NCBI RefSeq assembly: GCF_026341125.1
Contig: NZ_JAPEOR010000013.1
Coordinates: forward strand, 1-24,367
Length of the DNA: 24,367 nucleotides
From: Streptomyces sp. NBC_01142
GTDB taxonomy: Bacteria > Actinomycetota > Actinomycetes > Streptomycetales > Streptomycetaceae
Direction of reading: 5' to 3'
Part shown: piece by piece, positions 4,189 through 20,305 of the stretch
How positions within the stretch are numbered: the stretch's first letter is position 1
Layout: the number at the start of each line of letters is the position of its first letter
Notes under the pieces: model-generated
The model's input: the letters and a program-made list of their open reading frames with translations, nothing else
Told to the model about the DNA's origin: nothing
Databases searched by the model: none
Made by a program: the position numbers and the translations under genes

Positions 4189-4245
4189 TGAGAGGCGGTC
4201 GCGGTGGTCGCGTCGGATCGCCGCGTACAGCTCGACCTTCGACAT
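4189..4245 (-). pseudogene. Possible IS21 istA N-terminal sliver
   Basis: The minus strand encodes MSKVELYAAIRRDHRDRLS before the frame loses resemblance. This matches the usual N-terminal opening of actinobacterial IS21-family IstA proteins, just ahead of their helix-turn-helix. It is only 19 codons long, so chance is possible. The istA copy at 18780-20253 lacks this N-terminal part. Confidence 0.3.
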
Positions 4246-4921: not shown

Positions 4922-6310
4922 ATGTCTCGTCGGTATGTCCCGGCCGTCCTCGGCCTAGTGGCGGGCGCGCTGGTGGCGGTCCCCGTCCCGGCCGCTCACG
5001 CCGCCACGGCGCAGGTTCGCTGCTCGGTCCCGGATCTCGTCGCGGCGATCAACGCGGCGAACAGCTCACCGAGGCCGGACACACTCCGGCTGGCGCCCAA
5101 GTGCACGTACAAGCTGACGTCGCCGGACCCCGTGAACCCCGGCAACGGGCTGCCGGTGATCACCAGTGAGATCACCATCGACGGGCGTGGGGCCACGATC
5201 AGGCGGGACGGGCGAGAGAACAACGTGCCGAAGTTCCGGATCCTCTTCGTCGGTCCGACGGGAAACCTGACGCTCACCCGCACGACGATCAGCGGCGGCT
5301 TCGCCACGGACTGCCCTGCTTTCCCCGACCCCCCGGGCCTGGCCTGTGGCGGCGGTATCTCCAACACCGGAACGATGAAGGTGACCCGCAGCAAATTCAT
5401 CGGCAACACGTCCCGGTCCGACGTGTTCGCCCAGGGCGGCGGCATCGACAGCCCCGGTACCGGAAGCGTGAGCGAGACCGAAGTCACCGGAAACCACGTC
5501 ATCTACAGCGGGAGCGCAACCGGCGGCGGCGCTGCCGGCGGCGCCATCGCGAACGACGGTCCGCTGACGGTCACCCGCTCCCGGCTGACCGGGAACACCG
5601 CCACCGTCACCGAGGACACCCAGAGCACCGCCTTCGCGGCTGGCATCATCAGCTTCGCCGAGACGACCGTTGAGGACACGGTCATCAGCAAGAACCGTTC
5701 CTTCGCCCCGGGCGGGTTCGCGCGTGCCGCAGTCTCCAACGGCATTCCGGCGCCCGGCAGGATGACCGTGACCGGCGGCGCCATCAGCGACAACACATCG
5801 GACGCTCCGCACGGTGTCGCCCAGGGCGGCGGCATCGCGAACAACGGCCTGATGACTGTGAGCGATGTGAAGATCAGTGGCAACCGGGCGGTCGCCAAGG
5901 ACGGCACCGCGCGCGGTGGTGGCGTCCGCGTGGGCCCCTTCGGCACGCTCGACCTGAACGACAGCCGCATCACCGGCAACACCGTCGACGCGCCGAACGG
6001 CACCGCTCAGGGTGGTGGCCTCGACAACCCCGACGGCGGCACACTGACGGCCAGGCGGAACAAGGTCCTCCGCAACACCGTCACCGCGAAAGACGGCACG
6101 GCTCAGGGCGGCGGTCTCTACCACGCCGGGGGAACCACGGGGCTGGGCACCACCACGCTGGAGCAGAACACCATCACCCACAACCGGGCGGGCGACGGCG
6201 GCGGCATCTTCAAGGCGTCCGGCATCCTCACCCTGAACGGCGACGTCATCCGCGACAACCAGCCGAACAACTGCAGCCCGGCCGACGCGGTCCCCGGCTG
6301 CACCGGCTGA
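4922..6310 (+). CDS. Secreted right-handed beta-helix repeat protein
   Basis: The product has about 462 residues. The ATG at 4922 follows a near-perfect GGAGG Shine-Dalgarno and begins a classic Sec signal peptide (basic SRRY, hydrophobic core, AHA cleavage site near residue 27). The mature part consists of about nine imperfect coils of the type GGGI-x-N-x-G-x-MTVT-x-S-x-I-x-GNT, for example CGGGISNTGTMKVTRSKFIG and QGGGIANNGLMTVSDVKISG. These form a parallel beta-helix like those of polymorphic outer-membrane-like and pectate-lyase-like proteins. The N-terminal AAINAANSSPRPDTLRLAP block is the usual opening of this class. No catalytic residues are identifiable. It ends with two cysteines in a short tail. 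It is probably an extracellular adhesin-like or carbohydrate-binding protein. Confidence 0.85.
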   Translation: MSRRYVPAVLGLVAGALVAVPVPAAHAATAQVRCSVPDLVAAINAANSSPRPDTLRLAPKCTYKLTSPDPVNPGNGLPVITSEITIDGRGATIRRDGRENNVPKFRILFVGPTGNLTLTRTTISGGFATDCPAFPDPPGLACGGGISNTGTMKVTRSKFIGNTSRSDVFAQGGGIDSPGTGSVSETEVTGNHVIYSGSATGGGAAGGAIANDGPLTVTRSRLTGNTATVTEDTQSTAFAAGIISFAETTVEDTVISKNRSFAPGGFARAAVSNGIPAPGRMTVTGGAISDNTSDAPHGVAQGGGIANNGLMTVSDVKISGNRAVAKDGTARGGGVRVGPFGTLDLNDSRITGNTVDAPNGTAQGGGLDNPDGGTLTARRNKVLRNTVTAKDGTAQGGGLYHAGGTTGLGTTTLEQNTITHNRAGDGGGIFKASGILTLNGDVIRDNQPNNCSPADAVPGCTG

Positions 6311-6395
6311 CGGTCCCCCGGAGGCAGTGCAGCCCGCCGGGCTGTAAGGCCCACGAAATCGACGACTGACTGCCGAGCCGCCCGAGCTGCCCGGC

Positions 6396-6980
6396 TCATT
6401 CCTCTCCGTCGTCGTCATCGTCGTCCAGCTCGACCGCGTCCGGGTCGCGTAGGGGCCGCAGCCCCTCGCGCGGGACGGACGCGGTGAAGCTGTAGCGGCC
6501 AAGGACGTTCAAATTCCGGTGCTTGAGCGGGGACAGTCGGGCCACGTTCTCGTCGCGGATCTCGTGCCCCTGGGCGCGGAGCTGGGCGACGGCGGCGTCG
6601 ATGTACCGAGTCGTCCACAGCACCACCGCGTTCAGGACCAGGCCGAGCGCGCCGAGCTGGTCCTCCATCCCGTCCCGGTACGCCTGGTGGATGGTGCCCT
6701 TCTTGCCGTGGCAGATGTCCGGGGCCAGCTTGTGGCGGGACTCCTGGACGGTGAGCTGCTTGTGCATCTGCCGGCGGTAGGTGTCGTCGACCGGGTCGAC
6801 CACGGCGAGCAGGTGCAGGCTCTTGGCGATCCGCCCGTACTCGGCGAACGCCTGCCCCAAGGGCGTGGGATGCCCGTCGCGGCCGAATATCCGCAGCAGG
6901 TCGTAGGCGCGTACCTGGTTGGTGACCAGGGAGCCGGCCACCCGCAGCATGTCCGGCCAGTGCGTGAGCACCTTCTTCAC
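6396..6980 (-). pseudogene. tnpA: Outer Tn3-family transposase, C-terminal part
   Basis: The frame encodes the end of a Tn3-family DDE transposase: KKVLTHWPDMLRVAGSLVTN, the TPLGQAFAEYGRIAK block, LTVQESRHKLAPDICHGKKG, QEDQLGALGL-like GMEDQLGALGLVLNAVVLW, RLSPLKHRNLNVLGRYSF and an acidic tail. It starts precisely at the insertion boundary of the 6981-14025 element; the GTG 'start' is part of the TTCAC target duplication. The rest of the same gene lies across the element at 14026-14700. Joining the two after removing the element and one TTCAC gives an in-frame VNVKKVLTHW, as in intact relatives. The fragment is not functional. Confidence 0.93.
6976..6980. repeat. Target-site duplication TTCAC, left copy
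   Basis: TTCAC directly flanks the left inverted repeat and recurs at 14026-14030 beside the right one. Tn3-family elements characteristically make 5-bp duplications. Removing one copy together with the element restores the transposase frame. Confidence 0.85.
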
Positions 6981-7024
6981 GGTCCCGCCGGTAACGCTGC
7001 TGGATTGAACGCTAAGGAATGATC
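6981..7024 (+). repeat. Left terminal inverted repeat
   Basis: The repeat begins GGTCCCGCCGGTAACGCTGC and continues for 44 bases to AATGATC. It matches the reverse complement of 13980-14023 at all but one position (A at 7015 against T in the partner). Similarity stops abruptly after GATC. Confidence 0.93.
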
Positions 7025-7060
7025 TTGCCCCCTCGCCGGAGGTGGAGGGTAGCCGGTTGC

Positions 7061-7948
7061 CTACGACGCCAAAGGCGCGGTGGTCTGTTCGTCGTGTTCG
7101 CGCAGCATGCGCATGACGGTGGCGGGTGAGGGGTGCTGGCCCTTCTTCTGGCCGTTGGTGATGACGAGGCGGGAGGCGATGCCGCGGAGGCTCATCTCTT
7201 GCTCCCGCAGGTGGAGGGCCATGGAGAGCATGTGGTCGTCGGTGACGCCCGCGCCGCCGATGGTCTTGCCGCGCTTGCGGGCGGACTCGTGGCCTTCGAG
7301 GGTGCGGTCGCGGATGTACTCGCGTTCCATGCCGGAGAGAGCCGCCAGCACGGTGAATACGACGCCGGAGGGGTCGTGCGAGCCCTGGAGCTCACCGGTG
7401 AGGAAGTGAAGGCCGACGTCACTGGCCTTGAGCTCTTCGGCCAGCGTCGCCAGTTCGATGCCGCGGCCGAGTCGTTTGTGCTCGTGGACGACGAGGGTGA
7501 CGCGGACGCCGGAGGCGCGCAGTTCGCCGGCGAGCTTGACGGCCTCGTCCAGCTCGGGCCGTCGGGTGGCGCGGGTGGAGATCTTCTCGGAGAAGATCCG
7601 GGTGGCGCCCCCCTCGGTCAGCGAGTCGAGCTGGGAGTCCAGGGACTGGCGGGCCGTGGACGCACGGGCGTACCCGAGGCGGACGTGTCCGACCGGCTCG
7701 GTGCCGACACCCTTGGGCCGGGGCAGCTCGGTCCAGACCGAGCCGGGCTTGCGCACGGCGGGGGTCGGTTCGTTCAGCGCCTTGACGAGTTTTGGCACCA
7801 GCCGGAAGCGGGCGGTGTGGTACTGGATGGTCACCTTGCCCTTGCCGGTGCGGCACGGCGAGCCCGCCGGGGCGGCGCAGGTGGACATCGGGCAGGCGTG
7901 CGATTCCACGCGCTTGAAGTCGTCGCTCACGAGCCCTGACTGTTTCAT
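7061..7948 (-). CDS. tnpR: Serine recombinase (Tn3-type resolvase) with zinc-ligand-like N-terminal extension
   Basis: The product has 295 residues. The resolvase catalytic domain begins near residue 90 with RLGYARASTARQSLDSQLDS; Ser97 in the RAS motif is the expected nucleophile. It continues with TRIFSEKISTRATRRPEL, LVVHEHKRLGRG and LAALSGMEREYIRDRTLEG, and ends in a resolvase-type HTH (LRGIASRLVITNGQ). The first 60 residues are unusual: C19, C24, C32 and H44 in CPMSTCAAPAGSPCRTGKG form a probable zinc-binding module also seen in other actinobacterial mobile-element proteins. Its expected job is resolving cointegrates at the adjacent res-like site, which overlaps its start codon and may make it self-regulated. 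A downstream in-frame start would yield a conventional resolvase without the extension. Confidence 0.9.
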   Translation of the reverse strand: MKQSGLVSDDFKRVESHACPMSTCAAPAGSPCRTGKGKVTIQYHTARFRLVPKLVKALNEPTPAVRKPGSVWTELPRPKGVGTEPVGHVRLGYARASTARQSLDSQLDSLTEGGATRIFSEKISTRATRRPELDEAVKLAGELRASGVRVTLVVHEHKRLGRGIELATLAEELKASDVGLHFLTGELQGSHDPSGVVFTVLAALSGMEREYIRDRTLEGHESARKRGKTIGGAGVTDDHMLSMALHLREQEMSLRGIASRLVITNGQKKGQHPSPATVMRMLREHDEQTTAPLAS

Positions 7949-8056
7949 GAGGGTGTTTCAGCCGTCCAGCTATTTGCAACAACACATGAAACATGAAACC
8001 CGCAGCATGATCGGCGGGCGGCGCCGTGTTTCACGAGCGAACACCTATGAAACACG
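7941..8056. promoter_or_regulatory. Candidate res site / recombinase operator
   Basis: Six copies of the motif TGTTTCA or its complement TGAAACA (two with a one-base variant, TGAAACC and TGTTTCA ending in G) fall within about 115 bp: TGTTTCATGA at 7941, GTGTTTCAG near 7953, two in CATGAAACATGAAAC at 7984-7998, GTGTTTCACG near 8026 and TATGAAACAC near 8046. They occur in both orientations right at the 5' end of the resolvase gene, where Tn3-family elements place the three-subsite res region and the resolvase promoter. The assignment rests on position and repeat pattern only. Confidence 0.55.
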
Positions 8057-8648
8057 GCCCCCGGTTCGGACCGGTCAACTCGCGTCCGTGGAAACCACCT
8101 CAGAAGAACGGATGTGGCTCATGCGGTTCTACCGCTTGAACCGCGGATACGCGGTCCGCTCGATCGATGTTGCAATAGAGAGGCCTGCCCCTGGCCTCGG
8201 ACCGTCTGCGAGGCAATGGAGATCGGCGGCAGCATCCAGCCATTCAGGCAGAAGAAGCGGGGAAGGGAGCGCGGAGGCAGGATCGGAGTGCGCCCCGGCG
8301 GCTCCGTCCGGCTCCAGTCGGCGCGCCCTCTTCGCCACACCCACCGTGTGCTTCTCGATGCGCAGGCCGAATCGTTTTTCCGTCCTTGCGCGCATCCCGC
8401 TCGCCTGATGTTTCATTTTTGACGAACTTCGTGAGCCGCAGTACAGCTCTCTGGCCACTTTAGAACTTTACATATGATCCCAATTTCTCTAGCGACCTTG
8501 CTGTGGCATCCACCTATGCACGTAGCTATTTGGGTACACCCGCTTCCTTGTTCCGGCTCCGGATGAGCCTGGACGGGACGGCAGTGAACCGGTCTCCGGT
8601 TCCCGGCCGGCCAGGGGGCGGTCGTGACACCCCATGTGAGGAGAAGTC
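8057..8648. other. Leader region before the lasso precursor
   Basis: No protein gene is recognised in this 590-bp stretch. The part at roughly 8405-8545 is clearly AT-richer than the rest of the window (for example ACTTTAGAACTTTACATATG), as expected of a promoter region. It ends with GAGGAGA at 8638-8644, a strong ribosome-binding site for the precursor gene at 8649. Confidence 0.45.
8419..8447 (+). promoter_or_regulatory. Candidate promoter for the lasso peptide operon
   Basis: TTGACG at 8419-8424 is followed after 17 bases by TACAGC at 8442-8447, a plausible sigma-70-type pair in AT-richer sequence. It would leave a leader of about 195 bases before the precursor. A second candidate is TTGCTG at 8498 with TAGCTA at 8523. 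Neither is strong. Confidence 0.3.
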
Positions 8649-8759
8649 ATGAAGAAGGCTTACGAGGCGCCGACGCTGGTCCGGCTCGGGACGTTCCGGA
8701 AGAAGACCGGGCTCCTGCAGAGCTCCGGCAACGACCGTCTCATCCTGAGCAAGAACTGA
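8649..8759 (+). CDS. lasA: Lasso peptide precursor, citrulassin family
   Basis: This 36-codon gene is preceded by GAGGAGA. The leader (residues 1-21) contains the YxxP-type recognition sequence YEAPTLVRLGTF bound by the RRE protein, and ends KKTG with Thr at position -2, as lasso leader peptidases prefer. The core (residues 22-36) is LLQSSGNDRLILSKN. An isopeptide bond from the Leu1 amine to the Asp8 side chain would make an eight-residue ring (LLQSSGND), with RLILSKN as loop and tail. The GNDRL and LSKN motifs match citrulassin A (LLGLAGNDRLVLSKN, from memory), in which Arg9 is deiminated to citrulline. The QSS and Ile12 positions differ. The cyclase gene follows 26 bp downstream. Confidence 0.93.
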   Translation: MKKAYEAPTLVRLGTFRKKTGLLQSSGNDRLILSKN

Positions 8760-8785
8760 CGGGCGACGGTTCCTGACCCGACGTC

Positions 8786-10642
8786 ATGACTGAACTGCAC
8801 GAGAGTGCGGGGACGGGCCCCGGCGACGCGCACTTCACGGTCTTCACCGACCGGGAGGACGCGGCCGCCGTGGCCCGCTCCTTCGCCCGCCCCGCAACGC
8901 GAATCCTGCAGCACGCTTCGGGCCGGCCCTGGCTGGTGGGGCAGTGGCACGATGAGGAGATTGTCACCGCGCGCGCCGGCCACACGGCCCTCGCCGTCAT
9001 CGGCTGCTGTCCGGTCGACGCCGTAGAGCTCGGGCGCCACGCCGGCCGGCTACGTGATCTCGCCGAACTCGACGCACTGGCCCGCTCCCTTCCGGGGAGC
9101 TTCCATCTCGTCGCCGCGCTCGGCGGGCGGCTCAGGGTGCAGGGCACCGCCTCCGGGCTCCGGCTGGTCTTCCATGCCCCTGTTGACGGAACACAGGTGG
9201 CTGCCACCCGCGCCGACGTACTCGCCGCCGCGCTCGGCACCGACCCGGACGAGGAGCAACTGGCCGTCCGGCTGCTGTGGCCCATTCCCCATCCACTCGC
9301 CGGGGCACCCATGTGGCGAGGCATCACCGCCGTGTCCCCCCAGGACGCGCTGATCGTCTCGCCGGACGGCCGGACCGTACGCCACTCGCGCTGGTGGACA
9401 CCGCCGGAACCGGTACGCACGCTCGCCGATGGCGCCTCTCTCGTCCGCGAAGCCCTGGCCGCGGCGGTCGACGCCCGTACCCGGCAGGGTGGCGTGGTCA
9501 GCTGCGACCTGTCAGGCGGCCTGGATTCCACTTCCATCTGTTTCCTGGCGGACCGCTCACCGGCCCGGGTAGTGGCCAGCACCTGGCCTGGTCGTGACCC
9601 CGCCGACACCGATCTGTACTGGGCAGAACAGGCCGCCCGGTCGATGCCGGACATTGACCATGTGGTCTGGGACGCCGACGCTTCACCGCTGGTCTACACG
9701 GGCCTGCTCGGCATCGATGACCTGCTGGACGAACCGACTATCGGCGTCATGGACCGCTCGCGGGTCCTGCACCACCTGCCCGGCCTGGCGGAGCGGGGCA
9801 GCCGGTTGCACCTGACCGGCATCGGCGGCGACCACGTGGCCTGGTGCTCGGAGGCGTACTACCACCGACTGCTCCGCACCCGCCCGCTGTTCGCGCTGCG
9901 CCAGCTGCGCGGCTTCAGGGCCCTGTGGCAGTGGCCACTGGGCGGCACGGCACGCGCGCTGGCCGACTCGCGGCCGTACGGGAAGTGGCTGGCCGACTCC
10001 AGCGGCCGCCTGCGAGACCCACTACCCGCCACCGTCAGCACCAGCGTCGGCTGGGGCATGCCCCCTCGCCTCTTCGACTGGGTCACCCCCGACGCCGAAC
10101 GGATGGCCCAACGGGCGCTGCGCGAGGCCGCCTTGACCGCCGTACCGCTGCACCCGGACCGCGGCCTGCACACCGACCTCGAACAGATCCTTTCCTGCAC
10201 CCGCATCATCCGTCAGTGGGACGGGATGGCGGCCCGGGCCGGCCTGCCGATGGCATCGCCGTTCCTCGACGACCGCGTCATCGAGGCATGCCTCGCCGTG
10301 CGCCCGAGCGAGCGCGTCACGCCCTGGCAGTACAAACCCCTCCTGACCGCCGCCATGAGCGGGATCGTGCCCGATGCGTGCCTGCGGCGCACCAACAAGG
10401 CCGCCGCTTCCATGGACGCATCCAACGGACTGCGCGAACACCGCGCCGATCTGCTGGCGCTCTGGGAGGACTCCCGGCTGGAGCAGCTCGGACTGGTCGA
10501 CGGCGCAGCCCTGCGCCGGCTCGCCCAACGCCCGGCCACACCCGAACTGCGCGACGCGATCCTCTACTCGACCATCGCCGCTGAGGTGTGGCTGCGCGGC
10601 CTCCACCGAACCACCGGGCCCAAGGCTCCCGCCTCCTCATGA
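8786..10642 (+). CDS. lasC: Lasso peptide cyclase (asparagine-synthetase-like, C protein)
   Basis: The product has 618 residues, the usual size for lasso cyclases. The N-terminal half resembles the glutaminase-like domain of asparagine synthetase B but lacks the catalytic N-terminal Cys, as is normal for this family. The C-terminal half has the ATP-pyrophosphatase loop SGGLDSTS at about residues 243-250, then VVASTWPGRDPADTDLYWA, LTGIGGDHVAWC, the catalytic-face SPFLDDRVIEACLA block and TNKAAASMDASNGLREHR. It adenylates the Asp8 side chain and couples it to the core N-terminus, forming the macrolactam around the threaded tail. Its TGA overlaps an ATG (ATGA at 10639-10642). Only a poor Shine-Dalgarno is seen, so translation may depend on the upstream precursor gene. 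Confidence 0.95.
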   Translation: MTELHESAGTGPGDAHFTVFTDREDAAAVARSFARPATRILQHASGRPWLVGQWHDEEIVTARAGHTALAVIGCCPVDAVELGRHAGRLRDLAELDALARSLPGSFHLVAALGGRLRVQGTASGLRLVFHAPVDGTQVAATRADVLAAALGTDPDEEQLAVRLLWPIPHPLAGAPMWRGITAVSPQDALIVSPDGRTVRHSRWWTPPEPVRTLADGASLVREALAAAVDARTRQGGVVSCDLSGGLDSTSICFLADRSPARVVASTWPGRDPADTDLYWAEQAARSMPDIDHVVWDADASPLVYTGLLGIDDLLDEPTIGVMDRSRVLHHLPGLAERGSRLHLTGIGGDHVAWCSEAYYHRLLRTRPLFALRQLRGFRALWQWPLGGTARALADSRPYGKWLADSSGRLRDPLPATVSTSVGWGMPPRLFDWVTPDAERMAQRALREAALTAVPLHPDRGLHTDLEQILSCTRIIRQWDGMAARAGLPMASPFLDDRVIEACLAVRPSERVTPWQYKPLLTAAMSGIVPDACLRRTNKAAASMDASNGLREHRADLLALWEDSRLEQLGLVDGAALRRLAQRPATPELRDAILYSTIAAEVWLRGLHRTTGPKAPASS

Positions 10643-10671
10643 CCACCGTTGCTCAGCAGAAAGGCACACGC

Positions 10672-10926
10672 ATGGCATTGAAGTTCGGCGCCGATGTCTC
10701 CACTGCCGAGACGGACTACGGCACGGTCCTCCTGGACGAACGCGCCGGGGACTACTGGGAGCTGAATCCGACCGGCACCCTGGTGGTCAACACGCTGATG
10801 GCGGGCGGTGACGAAGCCGCCGCGGTCGCCGCGCTCGTCGACGAGTTCGACATCGACCTCGTCCAGGCGAAGCAGGACGTCGACGCCCTCGTACAGCAAC
10901 TGCGGACCTCGGGGCTGGCCGAATGA
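10672..10926 (+). CDS. lasB1: RRE / PqqD-like leader-binding protein (B1)
   Basis: The product has 84 residues beginning MALKFGADVSTAETDYGTVL. It is a PqqD-like winged-helix RiPP recognition element: YGTVLLDERAGDYWELNPTG, a hydrophobic helix TLVVNTLMAGGD, and VDEFDIDLVQAKQDVDALVQ. In split lasso systems this protein binds the YxxP leader region and delivers the precursor to the B2 protease and C cyclase. The chosen start has AGAAAGG upstream. An in-frame ATG at 10639, overlapping the cyclase stop codon, would add 11 residues and cannot be excluded. The 3' end overlaps the B2 start by 4 bp (ATGA), indicating translational coupling. Confidence 0.93.
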   Translation: MALKFGADVSTAETDYGTVLLDERAGDYWELNPTGTLVVNTLMAGGDEAAAVAALVDEFDIDLVQAKQDVDALVQQLRTSGLAE

Positions 10927-11357
10927 CGACGCCCAGCGCCCTGGAGCGGCCCACCGGCGTGCCCTTCGCCCGGCGCCTGGCCGCCCGTCTCGTCCTGATC
11001 CCCGCCCTCGTGCTCTCACTCCTGCCGCCCCGCCGGATCCGCGCCGTGCTCCACCTCGCATGCCGCCAAGCCACGCCGGCCACCGCCGCACAGGCAAAGA
11101 ACGCACGGGACGCGATGTGCGCGGTGAGCCTGCGCTGCGCCGGGCCGAAAGGCTGCCTGCCCCGGTCTCTGGGAGCCGCGCTGCTGTGCCGCCTGTCAGG
11201 GAGCTGGCCGACCTGGTGCACCGGGGTGCGCGTGGTGCCGCCGTTCACGGCGCACGCCTGGATCGAGGCGGACGGCCGCCCCGTGGACGAGGGCGTACCC
11301 GACGACTACTTCACCCGGCTCATCACGGTCGCTCCCGGGAGCCGGTCAGGCCGATGA
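10923..11357 (+). CDS. lasB2: Lasso leader peptidase (transglutaminase-like, B2)
   Basis: The product has 144 residues of the transglutaminase-like cysteine protease family that removes lasso leader peptides. The likely catalytic Cys lies in KGCLPRSLGAALLC and the His in TAHAWIEADGRPV; the third triad residue is probably the Asp of EADGRP. The N-terminal helices (RRLAARLVLIPALVLSLLPP) are typical. It should cleave after the KKTG sequence of the precursor when bound with the B1 protein, exposing Leu1 for cyclisation. Both ends overlap neighbours by an ATGA, showing a tightly coupled B1-B2-D unit. Confidence 0.93.
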   Translation: MTTPSALERPTGVPFARRLAARLVLIPALVLSLLPPRRIRAVLHLACRQATPATAAQAKNARDAMCAVSLRCAGPKGCLPRSLGAALLCRLSGSWPTWCTGVRVVPPFTAHAWIEADGRPVDEGVPDDYFTRLITVAPGSRSGR

Positions 11358-13213
11358 CCGACACCGCCGTGGATCAGGCACAGCCGACGGCCGCGGGCGA
11401 CCGCTCCACCCGGGCCGCGGTCGCCACCATGTACCGGCTCACCACCGGCCACCGGGCCACCATCACCGTCGCCACCGTACTCACCCTCGTCGGCTCGGCG
11501 CTCGGGCTTGCCCAGCCGCTCGTCGCCAAACAGGCCGTGGACGCGAGCGGACGGGGACAGGTGCTGTGGCCCTTGCTGCTGCTCCTGGCCGTACTGTTCG
11601 TCACCGAAGCGGCGACCAGCGCGGTGGGCCGCTTCGTCCTGGAGCGCATGGGCGAAAGCATCGTACGAGGGCTGCGCCACAGCCTGGTGGCGCGGCTGCT
11701 CCGGCTGGAGATGCGGGAGTACGACCGGCACCGCAGCGGCGACCTGATCTCCCGGGTCACCGCCGACACCACCCTGCTCAGAGAAGTCGTCTCCCAGGCA
11801 CTGGTCGATCTGGTGACGGGTGCCCTCGTCGCGGCGGGGGCGATCGTCCTCATGGTGTGGATCGACCCGCTGCTGCTCCTCCTGGTCGCCCTCACCGTAG
11901 CTACCGCCGCCGTGATCGTCGCCTCGCTTCTCAAGGGCATTCGGGCTGCCTCCGAACGCATGCAGACCTCCGTCGGCGCGATCGCCGCCGACCTCGAACG
12001 CGCCCTCGGCGCCCTGCCGATGGTCCGGGTTCACCGAGCCGAGGACCGTGAAGCGGCCCGCATCGGAGAACGCGTCGAGGCGGCCTACCGCGCCGGCGTA
12101 CGGACCGCGAAACTCGCCTCCCTGATGAGCCCCGCGGTCGAACTCGCCGTCCAGGGCTCCTTCCTGATCGTCCTGGTCATCGGCGGCCTGCGGGTCAACG
12201 GCCACGCCAACTCCCTCGGCGACCTGGTCGCCTTCCTGCTGTACGCCTCCTACCTGGTCCTTCCACTGTCCTCGGTCTTCCGGGCAGCAGGCCTGATCCA
12301 GCGTGGCATGGGGGCCTACCAGCGCATCGAGCAGGCACTTTCCCTGCCGGCGGAGCCCTCCCAGCAGACCCCGGCCGTCCGGGCATACACGCGCGAGGCA
12401 GCCCGGCAGACCATCCCGTACCAGGAACCCGCCCTCGCCCTGCGCAATCTCAGCTTCGGCTACGACCCGGACCGGCCGGTGCTGCGCGGCGTCTCGTTCA
12501 CTGTCCCCTACCGGCAGCAGACGGCCCTGGTCGGCCTGTCGGGTGCCGGAAAGAGCACGATCTTTGCCCTCATCGCCAGATTCCACGAACCGGACTCCGG
12601 GACCCTGCTCTTCGACGGCCTGCCCGCCACCGCACTGAGCCGCACCGCATGCCGCGGACGCATCGCCGTCGTCGACCAGAACGCCCACGTCGTCCACGGC
12701 ACCCTCTGGGACAACATCACCTATGCCACGCCCGACGCCACCCAGGCAGAAGTGCAACACGTCGTCGAGCTCGCCCAGCTGGAAGGCGTCGTGCGGCGGC
12801 TGCCGGACGGCTTGTCGGGAATGCTCGGCGAACGCGGCGGCACCCTGTCAGCGGGAGAGCGCCAACGGGTCGCCCTGGCCCGCGCCCTGCTCGCCCGCCC
12901 CTCGATCCTCCTGCTCGACGAGCCCACCTCCCACCTCGACACCATCAATGAGACCGCGCTCACCACAGTGATGAAGGACGTCGCCCGAGAATGCGCCGTC
13001 CTGGTCATCGCACACCGGCTCTCCACCGTCCAACACGCCGACCAGATCGTCGTACTGGACAACGGCCGCACCACCGCCCAAGGACGTCACCAGGAACTAC
13101 TCACCAGCAGCCCCATTTACCGCGAACTGGCCGCCGGACAGATGCTCCACCCAGCCAACGCCCAGACCTCCCCCGTGACGACCGTCCGCCCCCACCCACG
13201 CCACCCGCTGTGA
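11354..13213 (+). CDS. lasD: ABC transporter for lasso peptide export and immunity (D protein)
   Basis: The product has about 619 residues and is a half-size exporter fusing membrane and ATPase domains. The ATG at 11354 overlaps the B2 stop. Six membrane spans are expected in the first 340 residues, including ITVATVLTLVGSALGLAQPL, LLLLLAVLFVTEAATSAVG and FLIVLVIGGLRV. The nucleotide-binding domain has Walker A GLSGAGKS (about 394-401), signature LSAGERQR (about 498-505), Walker B ILLLDEPTS (about 518) and the H-loop VIAHRLST. In lasso clusters this protein exports the mature peptide and protects the producer. It is the last gene of the operon. The stop is followed by about 180 bp before a weak hairpin. 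Confidence 0.95.
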   Translation: MTDTAVDQAQPTAAGDRSTRAAVATMYRLTTGHRATITVATVLTLVGSALGLAQPLVAKQAVDASGRGQVLWPLLLLLAVLFVTEAATSAVGRFVLERMGESIVRGLRHSLVARLLRLEMREYDRHRSGDLISRVTADTTLLREVVSQALVDLVTGALVAAGAIVLMVWIDPLLLLLVALTVATAAVIVASLLKGIRAASERMQTSVGAIAADLERALGALPMVRVHRAEDREAARIGERVEAAYRAGVRTAKLASLMSPAVELAVQGSFLIVLVIGGLRVNGHANSLGDLVAFLLYASYLVLPLSSVFRAAGLIQRGMGAYQRIEQALSLPAEPSQQTPAVRAYTREAARQTIPYQEPALALRNLSFGYDPDRPVLRGVSFTVPYRQQTALVGLSGAGKSTIFALIARFHEPDSGTLLFDGLPATALSRTACRGRIAVVDQNAHVVHGTLWDNITYATPDATQAEVQHVVELAQLEGVVRRLPDGLSGMLGERGGTLSAGERQRVALARALLARPSILLLDEPTSHLDTINETALTTVMKDVARECAVLVIAHRLSTVQHADQIVVLDNGRTTAQGRHQELLTSSPIYRELAAGQMLHPANAQTSPVTTVRPHPRHPL

Positions 13214-13259
13214 ACCGGACACGGACACGACACCGAGCGCGCCTCAGGCAGTCCAGCCA

Positions 13260-13340
13260 GCCATCACCCTGGGCCAGGGCGACGGCGACGGCCAAGCCGT
13301 TGCTCCCTGCCGCGAAGGCGTCCGGCACCGACGACGTCAT
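13260..13340 (-). pseudogene. Possible FAD/NAD-binding oxidoreductase sliver
   Basis: The minus strand reads MTSSVPDAFAAGSNGLAVAV and continues ALAQGDG. This resembles the dinucleotide-binding start of phytoene-dehydrogenase-like oxidoreductases (GxGPNGLAAAVxLA), but with the glycine motif damaged. It is 27 codons long, so the match may be chance. If real, it is debris at the junction between lasso cargo and transposase remnant. Confidence 0.3.
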
Positions 13341-13395
13341 CGCCGGACACCTCCACGAGGCCACATCGGCACCACTTCGCCCGCGCTTACGTCAT

Positions 13396-13414
13396 CCCCG
13401 TCGGCTGACCGGGG
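13396..13414. terminator. Weak hairpin between convergent lasD and transposase remnant
   Basis: CCCCG and CGGGG form a 5-bp stem with a 9-base loop, followed on the plus strand by TTATT. It sits between the convergent exporter gene and the tnpA remnant, where a terminator would be expected. The stem is short. Confidence 0.3.
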
Positions 13415-13909
13415 TTATTCCTCGGAGGCGGCCAGGTCGCGCACCCGGTTACGCAGCAGCCACGTCACCGCCCGGTCGAACAGCGCCCGCAGCCCCTCGT
13501 TCGACACCCACACCCGCCCGGCGATGTACTCCCGCAGGGCCAGGTCGCCGTCCTCGAAGTCGCGGATCTTCAGCAGCCTCCGGATCTCGCGGGCGTGCTC
13601 GTGCTGGGTCGGCAGCCGCTCCGGGTACAGCTTCAGACACGACGGATCATCGATCCCCAACTGTTCCGCGACGAACTCGGCCACCCCAGGCGGCACTTCG
13701 GCCGGCGCCGACATGGAAGTGCCCAGCATCCGTACGGTGCCCCACTGAACCGCCCAGCCCAGCCGATTGTGAGGCCGACGCTTGGCCGCCGCCTGCTCCA
13801 GCGCCACCGTGTCCAGCCGGAAGAACTCCTCCAGCTCCTGCACTGACGGCTCCCCGGCGAAACGTCCATACCGGGCTGTCTGATCTTCTGAAAGATACCC
13901 AACAGTCAC
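13415..13909 (-). pseudogene. tnpA: Truncated Tn3-family transposase, N-terminal DUF4158 region
   Basis: A GTG-started frame encodes 164 residues opening with VGYLSEDQTARYGRFAGEPS. It continues through HNRLGWAVQWGTVRMLGTSM, VAEFVAEQLGIDDPSCL, HAREIRRLLKIRDF and ALFDRAVTWLLRNRV, the DUF4158 N-terminal domain of Tn3-family transposases. Family members are close to 1,000 residues; here the frame stops after RDLAASEE and everything including the DDE domain is gone. The gene starts about 70 bp inside the right inverted repeat and reads inward, as expected for the element's own transposase. The lost part appears to have been replaced by the lasso cargo. The fragment may still bind DNA but cannot transpose. 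Confidence 0.88.
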
Positions 13910-13979
13910 GACTCGTGACGCTAGGCAACAGGCGTCACAGTCGTCCCGGTAGTGATCGAACCGAGACCCCCCGACCCAT

Positions 13980-14025
13980 GATCATTCCATAGCGTTCAAT
14001 CCAGCAGCGTTACCGGCGGGACCCC
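13980..14025 (-). repeat. Right terminal inverted repeat
   Basis: Read inward on the minus strand it begins GGGGTCCCGCCGGTAACGCT and ends AATGATC. Positions 13980-14023 mirror 6981-7024 with one mismatch. The last two bases (14024-14025) are extra G residues, absent from the left end, that make the GGGG start common in the Tn3 family. Confidence 0.92.
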
Positions 14026-14030
14026 TTCAC
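14026..14030. repeat. Target-site duplication TTCAC, right copy
   Basis: This is the direct repeat of 6976-6980, immediately outside the right inverted repeat. It supports a genuine transposition event rather than a chance pair of inverted repeats. Confidence 0.85.
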
Positions 14031-14700
14031 GTTCACCTTGTTGCGGGCCAGTGCCTCCAACGGCCCGTAGTTGCCCAAGGCCTCGCCGCCGGGCATTTGG
14101 GCCTTCCAGAACCGCTGGTCTTCGAGGTCCTTGAAGCGCGGGGAGAAGCGGTAGCCGAGCATCTTGAAGATGCCGAAGACCATGTCGGAGTACGAGGCAT
14201 TGTCGGTGGCGACCATCTCCGGCTGAGTCGCGCGGGGTACCGGGCACCACCATCTGCCCGATCCCGATCACCTGGTCATTGATCGCGTTGAGCCAGGTGA
14301 TGCCCGTCTTCTTCGCGAAGTAGAGGGGCTCGGGGCGGCGTTGATGGTGCGGACCGGGACGACGAAGCGCAGGCCGTCGACAGAAGCGAGCAGCCCCTTC
14401 CCCCAGAACTGCACGATCGGCACCTGGGCCTGGGCCTCGATCAGGGCGGCGATGGTGTCGGCGCGAAGGTAGTACTGGTCTACGTGGACCAGGCGGGAAC
14501 GGGTGAGCGCCTCGATGTTCGGGTTGATGACCGGGGTCATGCCGATGTTGCACGCCTCGGAGACGAGCAGGGCGACGACCGAGGTCGTGAGGTCCTTCAT
14601 GCGGGTGCGTACCGCAAGGCCGGCGCCGCTGGCAACAGCCTTCGCCGACTGCGGGGCGCTCACGCCCTGGCCCTCCTTGCGGGAATCGTTGGGATTGGAG
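14026..14700 (-). pseudogene. tnpA: Outer Tn3-family transposase, central part, decayed
   Basis: The minus strand encodes the first part of the Tn3 DDE domain: MKDLTTSVVALLVSEACNIG, RLVHVDQYYLRADTIAALIE and LLASVDGLRFVVPVRTIN. After a one-base loss near 14328 it continues YFAKKTGITWLNAINDQV and MVVPGTPRDS. Then about 16 residues (the LHILDALLNLDGGVK block of relatives) are missing near 14230 and the frame changes again before EMVATDNASYSDMVFGIFKM and LGNYGPLEALARNKVNV. It ends at the TTCAC duplication; the C-terminal part is at 6396-6980. Upstream of about 14700 the resemblance fades, so the N-terminal half is lost. Part of the damage is independent of the later transposon insertion. Confidence 0.88.
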
Positions 14701-14925
14701 TGCCGGGCCAGGGCGAGTCCCAGGAGGCGGCCCGGCGGGTCAGCCGGCGGTCGAGGCGACGGACGTCATCGAGGAGGCGCATGATCACCTGCTTCCCGTC
14801 ATCCGGCACCCCACACACCAACCCCTGGGGTGGGGTCAGCGGTCGCCCGTGTCCTTGCGTTCCTCCATTTCGCGAGCAGTGGTCCGGCTGGCCGCTCTGG
14901 CGGGTGTCGACGGAAGCGCAGAGGC

Positions 14926-15861
14926 TCAGCGCGCTTGATGTGCTGCGAGGTGGATGACGTCGGCGTAGAGGCTGAAGAGGCGCGGTCGTGGACGGTTGTC
15001 CGCCGCCGCCACTTCTTGGTACTCGAGGAGCTGGGTCCAGCAGCGGGCCGCGAGGTGGCGGGCGTGCGTGCCGGTCCAGGGCTGGGGGAGGAGCTCGGGT
15101 GGGAGGAACGGGTCGGGTTCCATGGCGCGGGAGAACTCGGCTGCGAGTTCGATGGCGATGGTCAACTGCTCGGTATCGGTCGGGCTTGCGGTGTCGTCGA
15201 GTTGGTCGAGCCGGGCCTGGGCGAGTACGGCGAGCCGGTCATAGCGCTCGGCGATCTCTGCCAGGGGCCAGAGTTCGGAGGCGAGGTCGGTGGGGGCCCG
15301 GTGTTCGCCGATGCGCAGGTCGCTGCTGGTGAGGAAGGTGACGGCATCCAGGATGCCGAGCTGTCGCGCCTGGGCCTCGACGTGTTTCTCGATGGGGTTG
15401 GCGCTGACGTACAGACCGCCCTGGACGGCGGCTGCGCCGAGCCTGAGGAGGGAGTCGCGCAGGGTGTCGCGGGCGGCTCTGGCTGATTCCGGGATGGCGA
15501 ACGCGAAGAGGTGCCAGATGCCGCCCCACGGGGCGTGACCGTGGTCCTGTTGGTACGCGTAGCGGACGTATTCGACGTTCGGCGCAAGGGATCCGGTGAC
15601 GTCGGCGGTGGCACGCAGCAGGGCTTTGCGGCCGCGGCCTTCGTGGGTGAAGCGGCCTTCGGCGACGAGTCGTTTGATGCACAGGCGTACTTGCTGATCG
15701 CTCATTCCCAGGGTGCCCGCGATGGTGTAGAGCTCGCCGGCGTCGACGGTGCCGTCCTCGCGGACCATGGCATGCACGAGCAGGCGGGTGGGGATCTCGG
15801 GGGCGGCTTCGGGCATGGGCCGATCATAGGTGTGCGGGATGCGCCTCTCCCCGGTGGTCAC
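14926..15861 (-). CDS. PaaX-family transcriptional regulator
   Basis: The product has about 311 residues. The N-terminal winged helix (TRLLVHAMVREDGTVDAGEL, then MSDQQVRLCIKRLVAEGRF) and the central PaaX domain (WHLFAFAIPES, LRDSLLRLGAAAVQGGLYVS) match the PaaX family, which includes the phenylacetyl-CoA-responsive repressor of E. coli. No phenylacetate genes lie nearby, so the ligand is unknown. The GTG at 15861 overlaps the stop of the upstream GNAT gene (GTGA) and has a GGAG 9-10 bases before it, suggesting translational coupling. The ATG at 15816 would give a shorter N-terminus closer to the family norm. Confidence 0.85.
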   Translation of the reverse strand: MTTGERRIPHTYDRPMPEAAPEIPTRLLVHAMVREDGTVDAGELYTIAGTLGMSDQQVRLCIKRLVAEGRFTHEGRGRKALLRATADVTGSLAPNVEYVRYAYQQDHGHAPWGGIWHLFAFAIPESARAARDTLRDSLLRLGAAAVQGGLYVSANPIEKHVEAQARQLGILDAVTFLTSSDLRIGEHRAPTDLASELWPLAEIAERYDRLAVLAQARLDQLDDTASPTDTEQLTIAIELAAEFSRAMEPDPFLPPELLPQPWTGTHARHLAARCWTQLLEYQEVAAADNRPRPRLFSLYADVIHLAAHQAR

Positions 15862-17968: not shown

Positions 17969-17986
17969 GAGGAACGTAGGCTGCGG

Positions 17987-18783
17987 TCAGCCGGCCTTGG
18001 CGGGCTCTTCGGCTCGGGCTCGGGTGCTGGCGAGGCGGTAGGAGTCGGTACCGGTCTCGATAATGGTGCCGTTGAAGGTGAGGCGGTCGACGATGGCAGC
18101 GCAGAGTCGGGGATCAGTGAAGGTCTTGGTCCAGCCCCCGAAGGACTCGTTGGAGGCGATGGCGACGCTGTTCTTCTCCTCGCGCTCGGTCAGAACCTGG
18201 AAGAGGAGTTCAGCGCCGCGGCGGTCCAGTTCCATGTAGCCCAACTCGTCGATGCACAAAAGATCGACGCGTCCGTAACGGGCGATGGTCTTGTTCAGCT
18301 GCTTCTCGTCGGCGGCCTCGACCAGTTCGTTCACCAGCTTCGTGGCGAGCGTGTAGCGGACTCGGTAGCCCTTTTTGGCCGCCTCGGTGCCCAGGGCGAT
18401 GAGCATGTGGGACTTGCCGGTGCCGGAGTCCCCGATCAGGCAGAGCGGCTGGCTCTTCTTGATCCATTCACAGCTGGCGAGTGTGTGGATGGTCGCCGCG
18501 TCGATGTTGGGGTTGGCGTCGAAGTCGAAGGCCCGCAGGGATTTCTCTCGCGGGAAGCCGGCCGCCTTGATCCGTCGTTCCGAGCGGCGGCGGGACCGGT
18601 CGTCGCACTCGGTCATCAGTAGTTCGGCAAGGAAGCCGCGTAGGTCATCTGGTCCTTCATCGCCCGGTCGGCGATGTCGGAGAACTCGTTGCGGATCGAG
18701 GGCAGTCGCAGCATTCGGCAGGCGGTGTCGATGGCGGCGTCGGCGGCCTGCTCGGTCAAGCCTCGCTGGCGGGGCAGGGTCAC
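17987..18783 (-). pseudogene. istB: IS21 helper ATPase IstB, frameshifted
   Basis: IstB is the AAA+ target-selection partner of the IS21 transposase. A GTG at 18783 starts LPRQRGLTEQAADAAIDTAC and runs to MKDQMTYAA. The frame must then shift to continue as FLAELLMTECDDRSRRRSER; one G inserted near 18640 would give TYAGFLAELLM as in relatives. The rest is intact: Walker A LIGDSGTGKSHMLIALG, Walker B DLLCIDELGYMEL, sensor region SNESFGGWTKTF and C-terminal RLTFNGTIIETGTDSYRL. Without the lost base the protein is split, so I call it a pseudogene. A sequencing error in the GCGG(G)C run is possible. Confidence 0.8.
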
Positions 18784-20253
18784 TGGGCTTCTCCCTCACG
18801 GTGGTCACCGCCGCTGATTCGGCGGTGGCGGAGCAATTGGTCATAGGGGGTCACCGACGGCAGCGGCCTAGTGTCCGCAGGAAGGTGCGCGAGCCGCCAT
18901 TCATGCAGGGACGTCACCATCGCCGGCGGGTTCCCGGAAATCATCTGGCCTGCCGCAGGGACGGGTTCGGTCTCGGCCTGGGCAGTCTTACGGGCCTCCA
19001 GGGCGACTGCGTCCGCGGTCATGGCGCCGGCTCGCAGGGGCCGCGGCCAGGCCAGCGACGACATGCTCGTGAGGCAGGTGACGGCCCAGCAGGAGGACCT
19101 CGATCAGGGCCCGGGTGCCGTCCCGCTCACCGTGGATCTTGCGGGCCTGGTCCCACCAGGCGTCGTGGACCGGGGTGAATCTTCCTGCCGAGCGGGCCTG
19201 TTCGAGGGCTGTGGAGCCGGGGAACGCGCCGGGTTTGCGGACCAGGACTTCCAGGTAGTGGTCCAGGTCCAGACGGACGGCGCCCTTCGCGATCAGCCGC
19301 TCGTGCCGGGCCACTTCCACGTTCTGGTCGTAAACCACCAGATGGGAAGCATGCAGCACGACGCGCACGCGTTTGCCGATCAGCCGGATCGGGACCGAGT
19401 AGCGGTTGGTGCGGACCGGGATCTGTCCGTAGCGGTCGACCCGCGGGGTGAAGAGCCGGCCCGTCTCGAACGGTTCCTCGGGCAACGGCATCAGCAGCGG
19501 TTGTTCGAGTGCGAAGTACTCCGCGACCGTCTTGGGCCTGGACCCGATGCGGCGGGCGTCGTCCTGCCGGTCCCACTGTTCGACCATCTCGTTCAGTTCG
19601 GCGAGAGAGGAGACTTCGGGGACGGGGACGAAGTGGTTGCGGCGGAAGTAGCCGATCATCCCTTCGACGCCGCCCTTCTCGTGGGCGCCTTCGATGCCGG
19701 GTCGGCAGTAGAAGCTCTCGATGCCGAAGTGCGAGCGGAAGGCGATCCACCGGTCGGCCTCGACTCTTCCCCGGCTCTGCCCCAGCACCCTGGCGACGGC
19801 GGCTTTCAGGTTGTCGTAGCGGACCTTGGTCCTCGGCACTCCGCCCAGGGTCCGCAGTGCGTGGACGTGGCCTTCGAAGAAGGCTTCCGGGCCGCAGGAG
19901 GCGAACACGCGGTGGACGGCCTTGCCCGAGTACGACAGCCGGAAGGAGAAGAGGTAGCAGGTCACCAGCTCGCCGGCCAGGCGCACGGTCACGTCACCGA
20001 AGTCGGCCTCCGCCTCGTGGCCCGGCAGGTGAGTCTGCGGGACGAACGCCTCCAGCGGTGCCTTGCCGGATTTGACCAGGATCTCGGGCCTCCGGCCGGC
20101 GACGTAGTAGCGCACGACGCCGTAGGAGACGTCCGCCCCGTGCTCCTCGACCAGCCGGTGGAAGATGCGAGTGACCGTGTGCCGCTGCTTGCGCGGCGCG
20201 TCCAGATCCGCCCGCAGGATCTCGTCGATCACCGTCTTGTACGGGTCCAGCAT
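18780..20253 (-). pseudogene. istA: IS21 transposase IstA, N-terminally truncated and frameshifted
   Basis: The frame starting at 20253 begins LDPYKTVIDEILRADLDAPR, which corresponds to a region after the N-terminal HTH of full IstA proteins. The DDE core is present: EADFGDVTVRLAGE (first Asp), TKVRYDNLKAAVARVLG (second Asp) and KGGVEGMIGYFRRNHF (Glu), followed by the C-terminal beta domain FTPRVDRYGQIPVRTNRYS. Near 19045 one extra C in a CCCC run breaks the frame. Removing it gives GLAAALRAGAMTADAVALEA and the normal C-terminus ending HREGEAQ at 18780, overlapping istB. The missing N-terminus and the frameshift make it inactive. Confidence 0.82.
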
Positions 20254-20305
20254 CGTGGCTCGGGGAGGCCAGGGCCCCGGCGTTTGCCCGGCTCGTCCGG
20301 TTTGA

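Follow-up and report, generated by a model that had tools for sequence, protein, structure and literature searches.

A putative transposase-deleted Tn3-family transposon carrying a complete citrulassin-type lasso peptide pathway

The window analysed here is the complete contig C13 (24,367 bp) of the 10.1-Mb genome of Streptomyces sp. NBC_01142, which is assembled in 15 contigs; the ends of the contig do not overlap. Judged from its sequence, the segment at 6981–14025 (7.05 kb) is a transposase-deleted, non-autonomous transposon of the Tn3 family, the cargo of which is a complete pathway for a ribosomally synthesized and post-translationally modified peptide (RiPP). With a probability of roughly 0.93, a complete citrulassin-type lasso peptide pathway fills the passenger slot of this element, between the 3' end of the transposase gene tnpA and the module of resolution site and resolvase gene (res-tnpR). 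The passenger is placed in this slot because homology of the transposon backbone ends close to res at the left and, at the right, some 46 bp beyond tnpA. From the left, the order is terminal repeat, tnpR (minus strand), res, the genes for precursor, cyclase, RiPP recognition element (RRE), protease and exporter (plus strand), a tnpA remnant (minus strand) and terminal repeat. The five lasso genes, serine recombinase and res-like site that the original prediction had placed between inverted repeats were all present, with TTCAC on both sides. Its reading of a discrete 7-kb Tn3-family transposon with a whole RiPP pathway as cargo is supported by the ends, by the 5-bp duplication and by a homologue in which the target gene is not interrupted.

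Ends, backbone and target of the element

Transposons of the Tn3 family have long terminal inverted repeats with an outer GGGG, produce a 5-bp target duplication and carry their passengers between tnpA and res. The arms of the element in the window, the left at 6981–7027 (plus strand, tnpR side) and the right at 13977–14023, are 96% complementary over 47 nucleotides (nt). The longest exact inverted match within 6000–15000 was 34 nt, compared to a maximum of 17 nt in 50 shuffles of 3-base blocks, and a 44-base repeat pattern allowed up to 3 mismatches occurred twice in the genome, both times at the ends of the element. The full outer end, GGGGTCCC, is present in relatives and at the right terminal repeat (13977–14025, minus strand, tnpA side), and the left end is without its two outermost G. 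The repeats had been predicted at 44 bp; as a pair they proved real, and their extent was corrected to the arms and outer ends given here. Directly outside both ends lie the two copies of a 5-bp target duplication, TTCAC, at 6976–6980 and 14026–14030.

On the left, tnpR (7061–7948, minus strand) encodes a serine resolvase of 295 amino acids (aa) with an N-terminal zinc-binding domain (PF24623) and a Resolvase domain (PF00239), and the protein matches the Tn3 and gamma-delta resolvases in the PDB. The zinc-binding domain was also observed in the TnpR of a transposon in genome G051, described below. Elsewhere in the genome under study (G000) three tnpR fragments were seen, each 82% identical to the tnpR of the window (C1:7211–7445, C3:14732–14966 and C10:414–648); all lie near contig starts and may represent the end of a chromosome or plasmid in several copies. 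A res site is predicted by sequence at 7940–8055, with GTTTCAT/ATGAAAC half-sites of which the first dyad spans 8026–8055; these half-sites are common to 7 aligned elements, upstream of tnpR. In the best six of 300 records, the tnpR-res stretch is 84.9–88.0% identical to plasmid-borne copies, and the similarity ends at 8053–8062 in most of the best matches and at 8099 in one. In four of these six plasmid copies (L239–L242), a search at E values up to 0.001 did not detect the terminal repeat, and the TnpA N-terminus gave a weak match in one (46% over 78 aa). As no such repeat and at most a weak TnpA N-terminus were found with these close tnpR-res copies, the element appears to be a mosaic.

On the right, the tnpA remnant lies at 13415–13909 (minus strand). 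Its first 156 aa match the TnpA of G051 (91%) and of a second genome, G166 (90%), after which it reads RDLAASEE and a stop codon; the full transposases end in RDPAASEE (G051) and RDPNAAEE (G166). Since the N-terminal 156 aa run into last-codon sequence resembling that of full TnpA, tnpA appears to have lost approximately 2.5 kb by an internal in-frame deletion, and as what is left of the gene is its DUF4158 end and final 8 codons, the element is classed as a transposase-deleted derivative. The part of a transposase reported in the original prediction was confirmed as these N-terminal 156 aa and last 8 aa. A stretch of about 46 bp downstream of tnpA (13367–13412, minus strand) is common to the window and the G051 transposon and is not shared with G166 or G370. 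In the protein database, the 90% cluster of the remnant comprises 4 member sequences on 1 contig.

In common with Tn3, gamma-delta and their relatives, the element has long paired repeats with an outer GGGG (at the right end and in sister copies, the left end being short by GG), a 5-bp duplication and a serine resolvase with a res site recognised by sequence, and the TnpA of the sister copies contains DUF4158 and DDE_Tnp_Tn3 domains. It differs from them in that its passenger is a complete lasso pathway, its tnpA is reduced to an internal-deletion remnant and its resolvase has the additional N-terminal zinc-binding domain.

The flanks of the element are parts of one gene, encoding another Tn3 transposase: PF01526 positions 173–230 end at the right junction and positions 230–389 start at the left. 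The 3' part of this interrupted outer gene lies at 6396–6980 (minus strand; PF01526 positions 230–389), and the remnant of its upstream part at 14026–14614 (minus strand). A joined flank of 120 bases, with the element removed, was compared with 13 loci. Eight of these scored at least 125 (L222, L228, L231, L232, L234–L237), L238 scored 110, and the joined flank was unaligned at the other four (scores 31–42; L229, L230, own-genome L205, L210). The homologue in genome G085 (L222) is uninterrupted: it agrees with the joined flank at all of 29 bases surrounding the join and contains a single TTCAC; the other seven displayed homologues have at least one difference inside the five duplication bases. 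Homology to the target on the right stops at 14606–14614 in 8 of 9 loci of other genomes and at 14576 in one; therefore the target was already a remnant before being interrupted, and the element entered an already truncated Tn3 transposase gene with a 5-bp duplication. That the lasso cluster was instead resident and unrelated Tn3 scraps landed on either side of it is highly improbable: Tn3 remnants are frequent in this genome, but the paired ends, the duplication and a layout like that in G051 speak against it, and it is contradicted by eight homologues in which the target gene is continuous over the join, one of them having a single TTCAC.

The lasso passenger and its predicted product

The cargo segment (8189–13257, plus strand) is homologous to a citrulassin locus in genome G294 (L066), with 93.9% nucleotide identity over 5 kb. 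Its genes, all on the plus strand, encode a lasso precursor with the core LLQSSGNDRLILSKN (8649–8759), a macrolactam cyclase resembling asparagine synthase (8786–10642), a PqqD-type RRE (lasso_PqqD_Strm; 10672–10926), a B2 leader protease (10923–11357) and an ATP-binding cassette (ABC) exporter (11354–13213). In the accessible part of PMC12971885, citrulassins are described as having a core with GNDRLILSKN and Arg9, and a gene for a peptidylarginine deiminase (PAD) outside the cluster. The precursor in the window has Arg9 in a GNDRL core and is accompanied by the cyclase, RRE, B2 protease and exporter. Accordingly classed as citrulassin-type, the passenger is predicted to yield a lasso peptide of sequence LLQSSGNDRLILSKN. 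Arg9 of this peptide could be citrullinated, as the host carries a PAD gene elsewhere (PF03068, 388 bits, C3:649938–651239); a second PF03068 match in the genome, at C1, scores 30 bits.

The cluster in the window agrees with citrulassin clusters in gene set, in the GNDRLILSKN core with Arg9 and in a PAD gene outside the cluster; among the loci examined, only that in the window sits between paired transposon ends. Since PAD is encoded elsewhere than in the cluster, a transposon jump would bring a new host the core lasso genes alone, and what is produced there may depend on the presence of PAD in that host.

Related transposons and other citrulassin loci

A genus sample of 392 genomes was searched with a 27-base core of the terminal repeat at up to 3 mismatches. 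The core was present in 11 of these, including the genome under study, and a reversed-pattern control gave 0. The concern that the repeats might be found only here can thus be set aside, as ends of the same kind recur in the genus, in G166 with a target duplication of their own. The transposon in G166 (L116:2051–10033) spans 8 kb and has the same ends, an intact TnpA of 1016 aa and GGAAA on both sides. Its cargo comprises a B12-binding radical SAM protein, a LysE exporter and a tyrosine recombinase, and no tnpR was detected in it. The G051 transposon (L117) has both ends, a tnpA in two frames, a tnpR with 59% identity and 13 kb of different cargo (FtsX-like permease, hydrolase, glycosyltransferase and others). 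Both resemble the element in the window in their terminal repeats (92–96% over 39–46 bp to a window-derived consensus) and TnpA N-termini (90–91% over 156 aa) and differ from it in cargo. Adjoining a related intact tnpA, an open frame of 1806 aa with a weak DUF3626 match was observed at L120:14008–19428.

Citrulassin-type cyclases (at least 59% identity; two genes split or partial) were found in 48 of the 392 genomes, including the genome under study. One genome has two; in this genome, G006 (L071, L072), they lie on different contigs and each is 86% identical to that of the window. The survey covered 48 other loci of the genus (L066–L113) and 80 named loci kept of 103 found in genome_contigs (L125–L204), 128 in all, with flanks of up to 8–10 kb, shorter where contigs end. 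As these sets overlap, they amount to 101 distinct cyclase loci including the window. Of the 101, 7 carry the core LLQSSGNDRLILSKN and 2 yielded no precursor by the rule applied; LLGLAGNDRLVLSKN, found at L184, is presumably citrulassin A. A second draw of the genus (n = 333, 326 genomes, E values up to 1e-250) matched 35 genomes, all drawn earlier, and gave no new case. Among plasmids, the cyclase matched 6 records at E values up to 1e-80, all below 60% identity.

Homology of the 48 genus loci to positions 6000–15000 of the window, the range to which the matches listed for most loci refer, is confined to 8189–13257 except for a tnpR fragment at L066 and a 73-bp match at L080. Matches to TnpR, TnpA or the terminal repeat occurred at only one of the 128 other loci, the decayed L066 of G294, and the proposal that the element explains the scattered distribution of citrulassins is consequently not supported. 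Among the distinct loci, the left flank is shared with no other locus in 70 of 97 and the right flank in 63 of 94. Common surroundings are seen in one group (8 loci on the left, 11 on the right), and 34 pairs have both flanks in common. Because most flanks are unshared, the citrulassin cluster appears to occupy many genomic places, without Tn3 traces apart from G294. A scan for bracketing inverted repeats, in which 117 of 129 loci (window included) were testable and a mismatched-pair control reached a maximum of 25, gave transposon-type ends at no locus besides the window (score 41). Rejected as ends were L112 (score 49) and L111 (39), each with repeats that recur in its own locus (5 and 6 times), as well as L100/L187 (27), with repeats also recurring within their loci (3–6 times across the rejected loci), and L181, in which the bracketing repeat was a run of N.

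Several of the results weigh against the reading of the segment at 6981–14025 as a transposon with a lasso passenger. No second intact copy with the same cargo was found in the 48 genus loci or the 80 named loci, nor was this cargo seen elsewhere within such ends and with a different duplication, which the original prediction had asked for as support. None of 300 matching plasmid records covers 80% of the whole element. The contig with the second-closest cargo (93%), that of RP5T/G242, is 8 kb long and stops at the exporter gene, which leaves the right side of the locus out of view. The G051 ends show no matching target duplication. Finally, the element is devoid of a TnpA with the Tn3 DDE domain, a point that counts against the element solely as an autonomous member of the family.

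Origin of the G294 locus and mobility of the element

The citrulassin locus in G294 has a precursor identical to that in the window and lies in surroundings that differ from those of the window. Directly upstream of the cargo is a tnpR fragment (aa 36–161, in two frames), and approximately 100 bp downstream is a terminal repeat diverged to 86–88% over 37–40 aligned bases; a left end and tnpA were not found at the locus. The tnpR fragment differs from that of the window at 68 of 365 sites (34 of 123 third positions), compared to 8.0% and 11.3% of 4-fold sites in the cyclase and ABC genes and 10.1% of the upstream non-coding sequence. The transposon parts at G294 therefore appear to be more diverged than the cargo. 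Identity of the fragment is 79.6–82.9% to four plasmid tnpRs and 81.4% to the tnpR of the window. Further out, a gene at L066:3614–4786 is 90% identical to L162:7575–8737, located upstream of the citrulassin cluster of S. nigrescens, the lasso genes of which are 77–79% identical and which has no Tn3 trace. This common gene speaks against a simple transposition story for G294. In a search for the empty site, 10 of 150 genomes matched, G294 included, and the other matches begin at least 766 bp beyond the right repeat.

The most probable explanation for G294, though at somewhat below even odds, is a single capture, after which the transposon with its lasso genes came to lie at different sites and, in G294, suffered decay or partial exchange of its backbone. 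Consistent with this, the tnpR fragment, lasso cluster and terminal repeat are arranged and oriented alike at both loci, the precursor is identical and no flanks are common to the two; the excess of differences in the tnpR fragment over the cargo, and the similar nearness of the fragment to plasmid tnpRs, are not readily accommodated. Two independent captures of the same cluster by related Tn3-family transposons would account for the greater divergence of the backbone on the tnpR side and of the terminal repeat. This is the less probable course: order and orientation are the same and the limits of the cargo similar, and, with the left end missing, the G294 locus may not have been a transposon. 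By extension, it is a tentative and rather doubtful suggestion that this lasso pathway was taken up by such Tn3-family transposons on two or more occasions (window and G294), complete small RiPP pathways being recurrent Tn3 passengers in Streptomyces, like resistance genes elsewhere, with most captures decaying unseen. Still less likely is a cluster present for other reasons with Tn3 scraps as a chance neighbourhood. The fragmentary state of the locus, for which no left end, duplication or empty site was found, and the gene common with the Tn3-free L162 on the same side are in its favour, but a cluster flanked on each side by scraps of this transposon type, arranged and oriented as in the window, is found at no other of the 128 loci.

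From what is typical of the family, the element in the window would have moved by replicative (cointegrate) transposition, in which TnpA acts on the two ends and TnpR resolves at res. The tnpA deletion may have occurred before or after insertion; it leaves the element non-autonomous, so that any movement would depend on a related TnpA supplied in trans. The element is probably static now, having lost the two outer bases at its left end. Within its own genome, the N-terminal TnpA remnant matches only itself. The TnpA of G051 (second piece) gave 13 matches there, the best-scoring being 51% identical with an internal stop (C2) and 52% (the outer gene of the window), and one long open frame 23% identical; no close TnpA was found. 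On account of the deleted tnpA, the lack of a close TnpA in the genome and the short left end, the element is probably immobile at present and mobility is unlikely unless a related element enters. The idea of a compact vehicle for spreading the peptide hence holds for a past insertion with the pathway as cargo and is doubtful, for the same three reasons, for the present day.

No report of a lasso pathway in a Tn3 transposon was found at the level of titles and abstract openings, in a search outside of which most subscription papers fall. Nearest in subject, as far as the accessible part goes, are lanthipeptide clusters near genetic-exchange genes (PMC12715929), and the accessible text of PMC12971885 contains 0 occurrences of 'transpos', 'horizontal' and 'mobile'. 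The element is a known kind of vehicle with a passenger not found reported, well supported as an insertion and rare among citrulassin loci. Through its target duplication and the uninterrupted target homologue, it shows that a unit transposon can carry an entire natural-product pathway, here of about 5 kb. This makes the element a concrete test case for the movement of small RiPP pathways, the other citrulassin loci examined, G294 apart, being without trace of a Tn3 route.

Elsewhere in the window, an IS21-type insertion sequence with istA/istB lies at 17986–20269, and a second, short match to the same insertion sequence lies near 4200.

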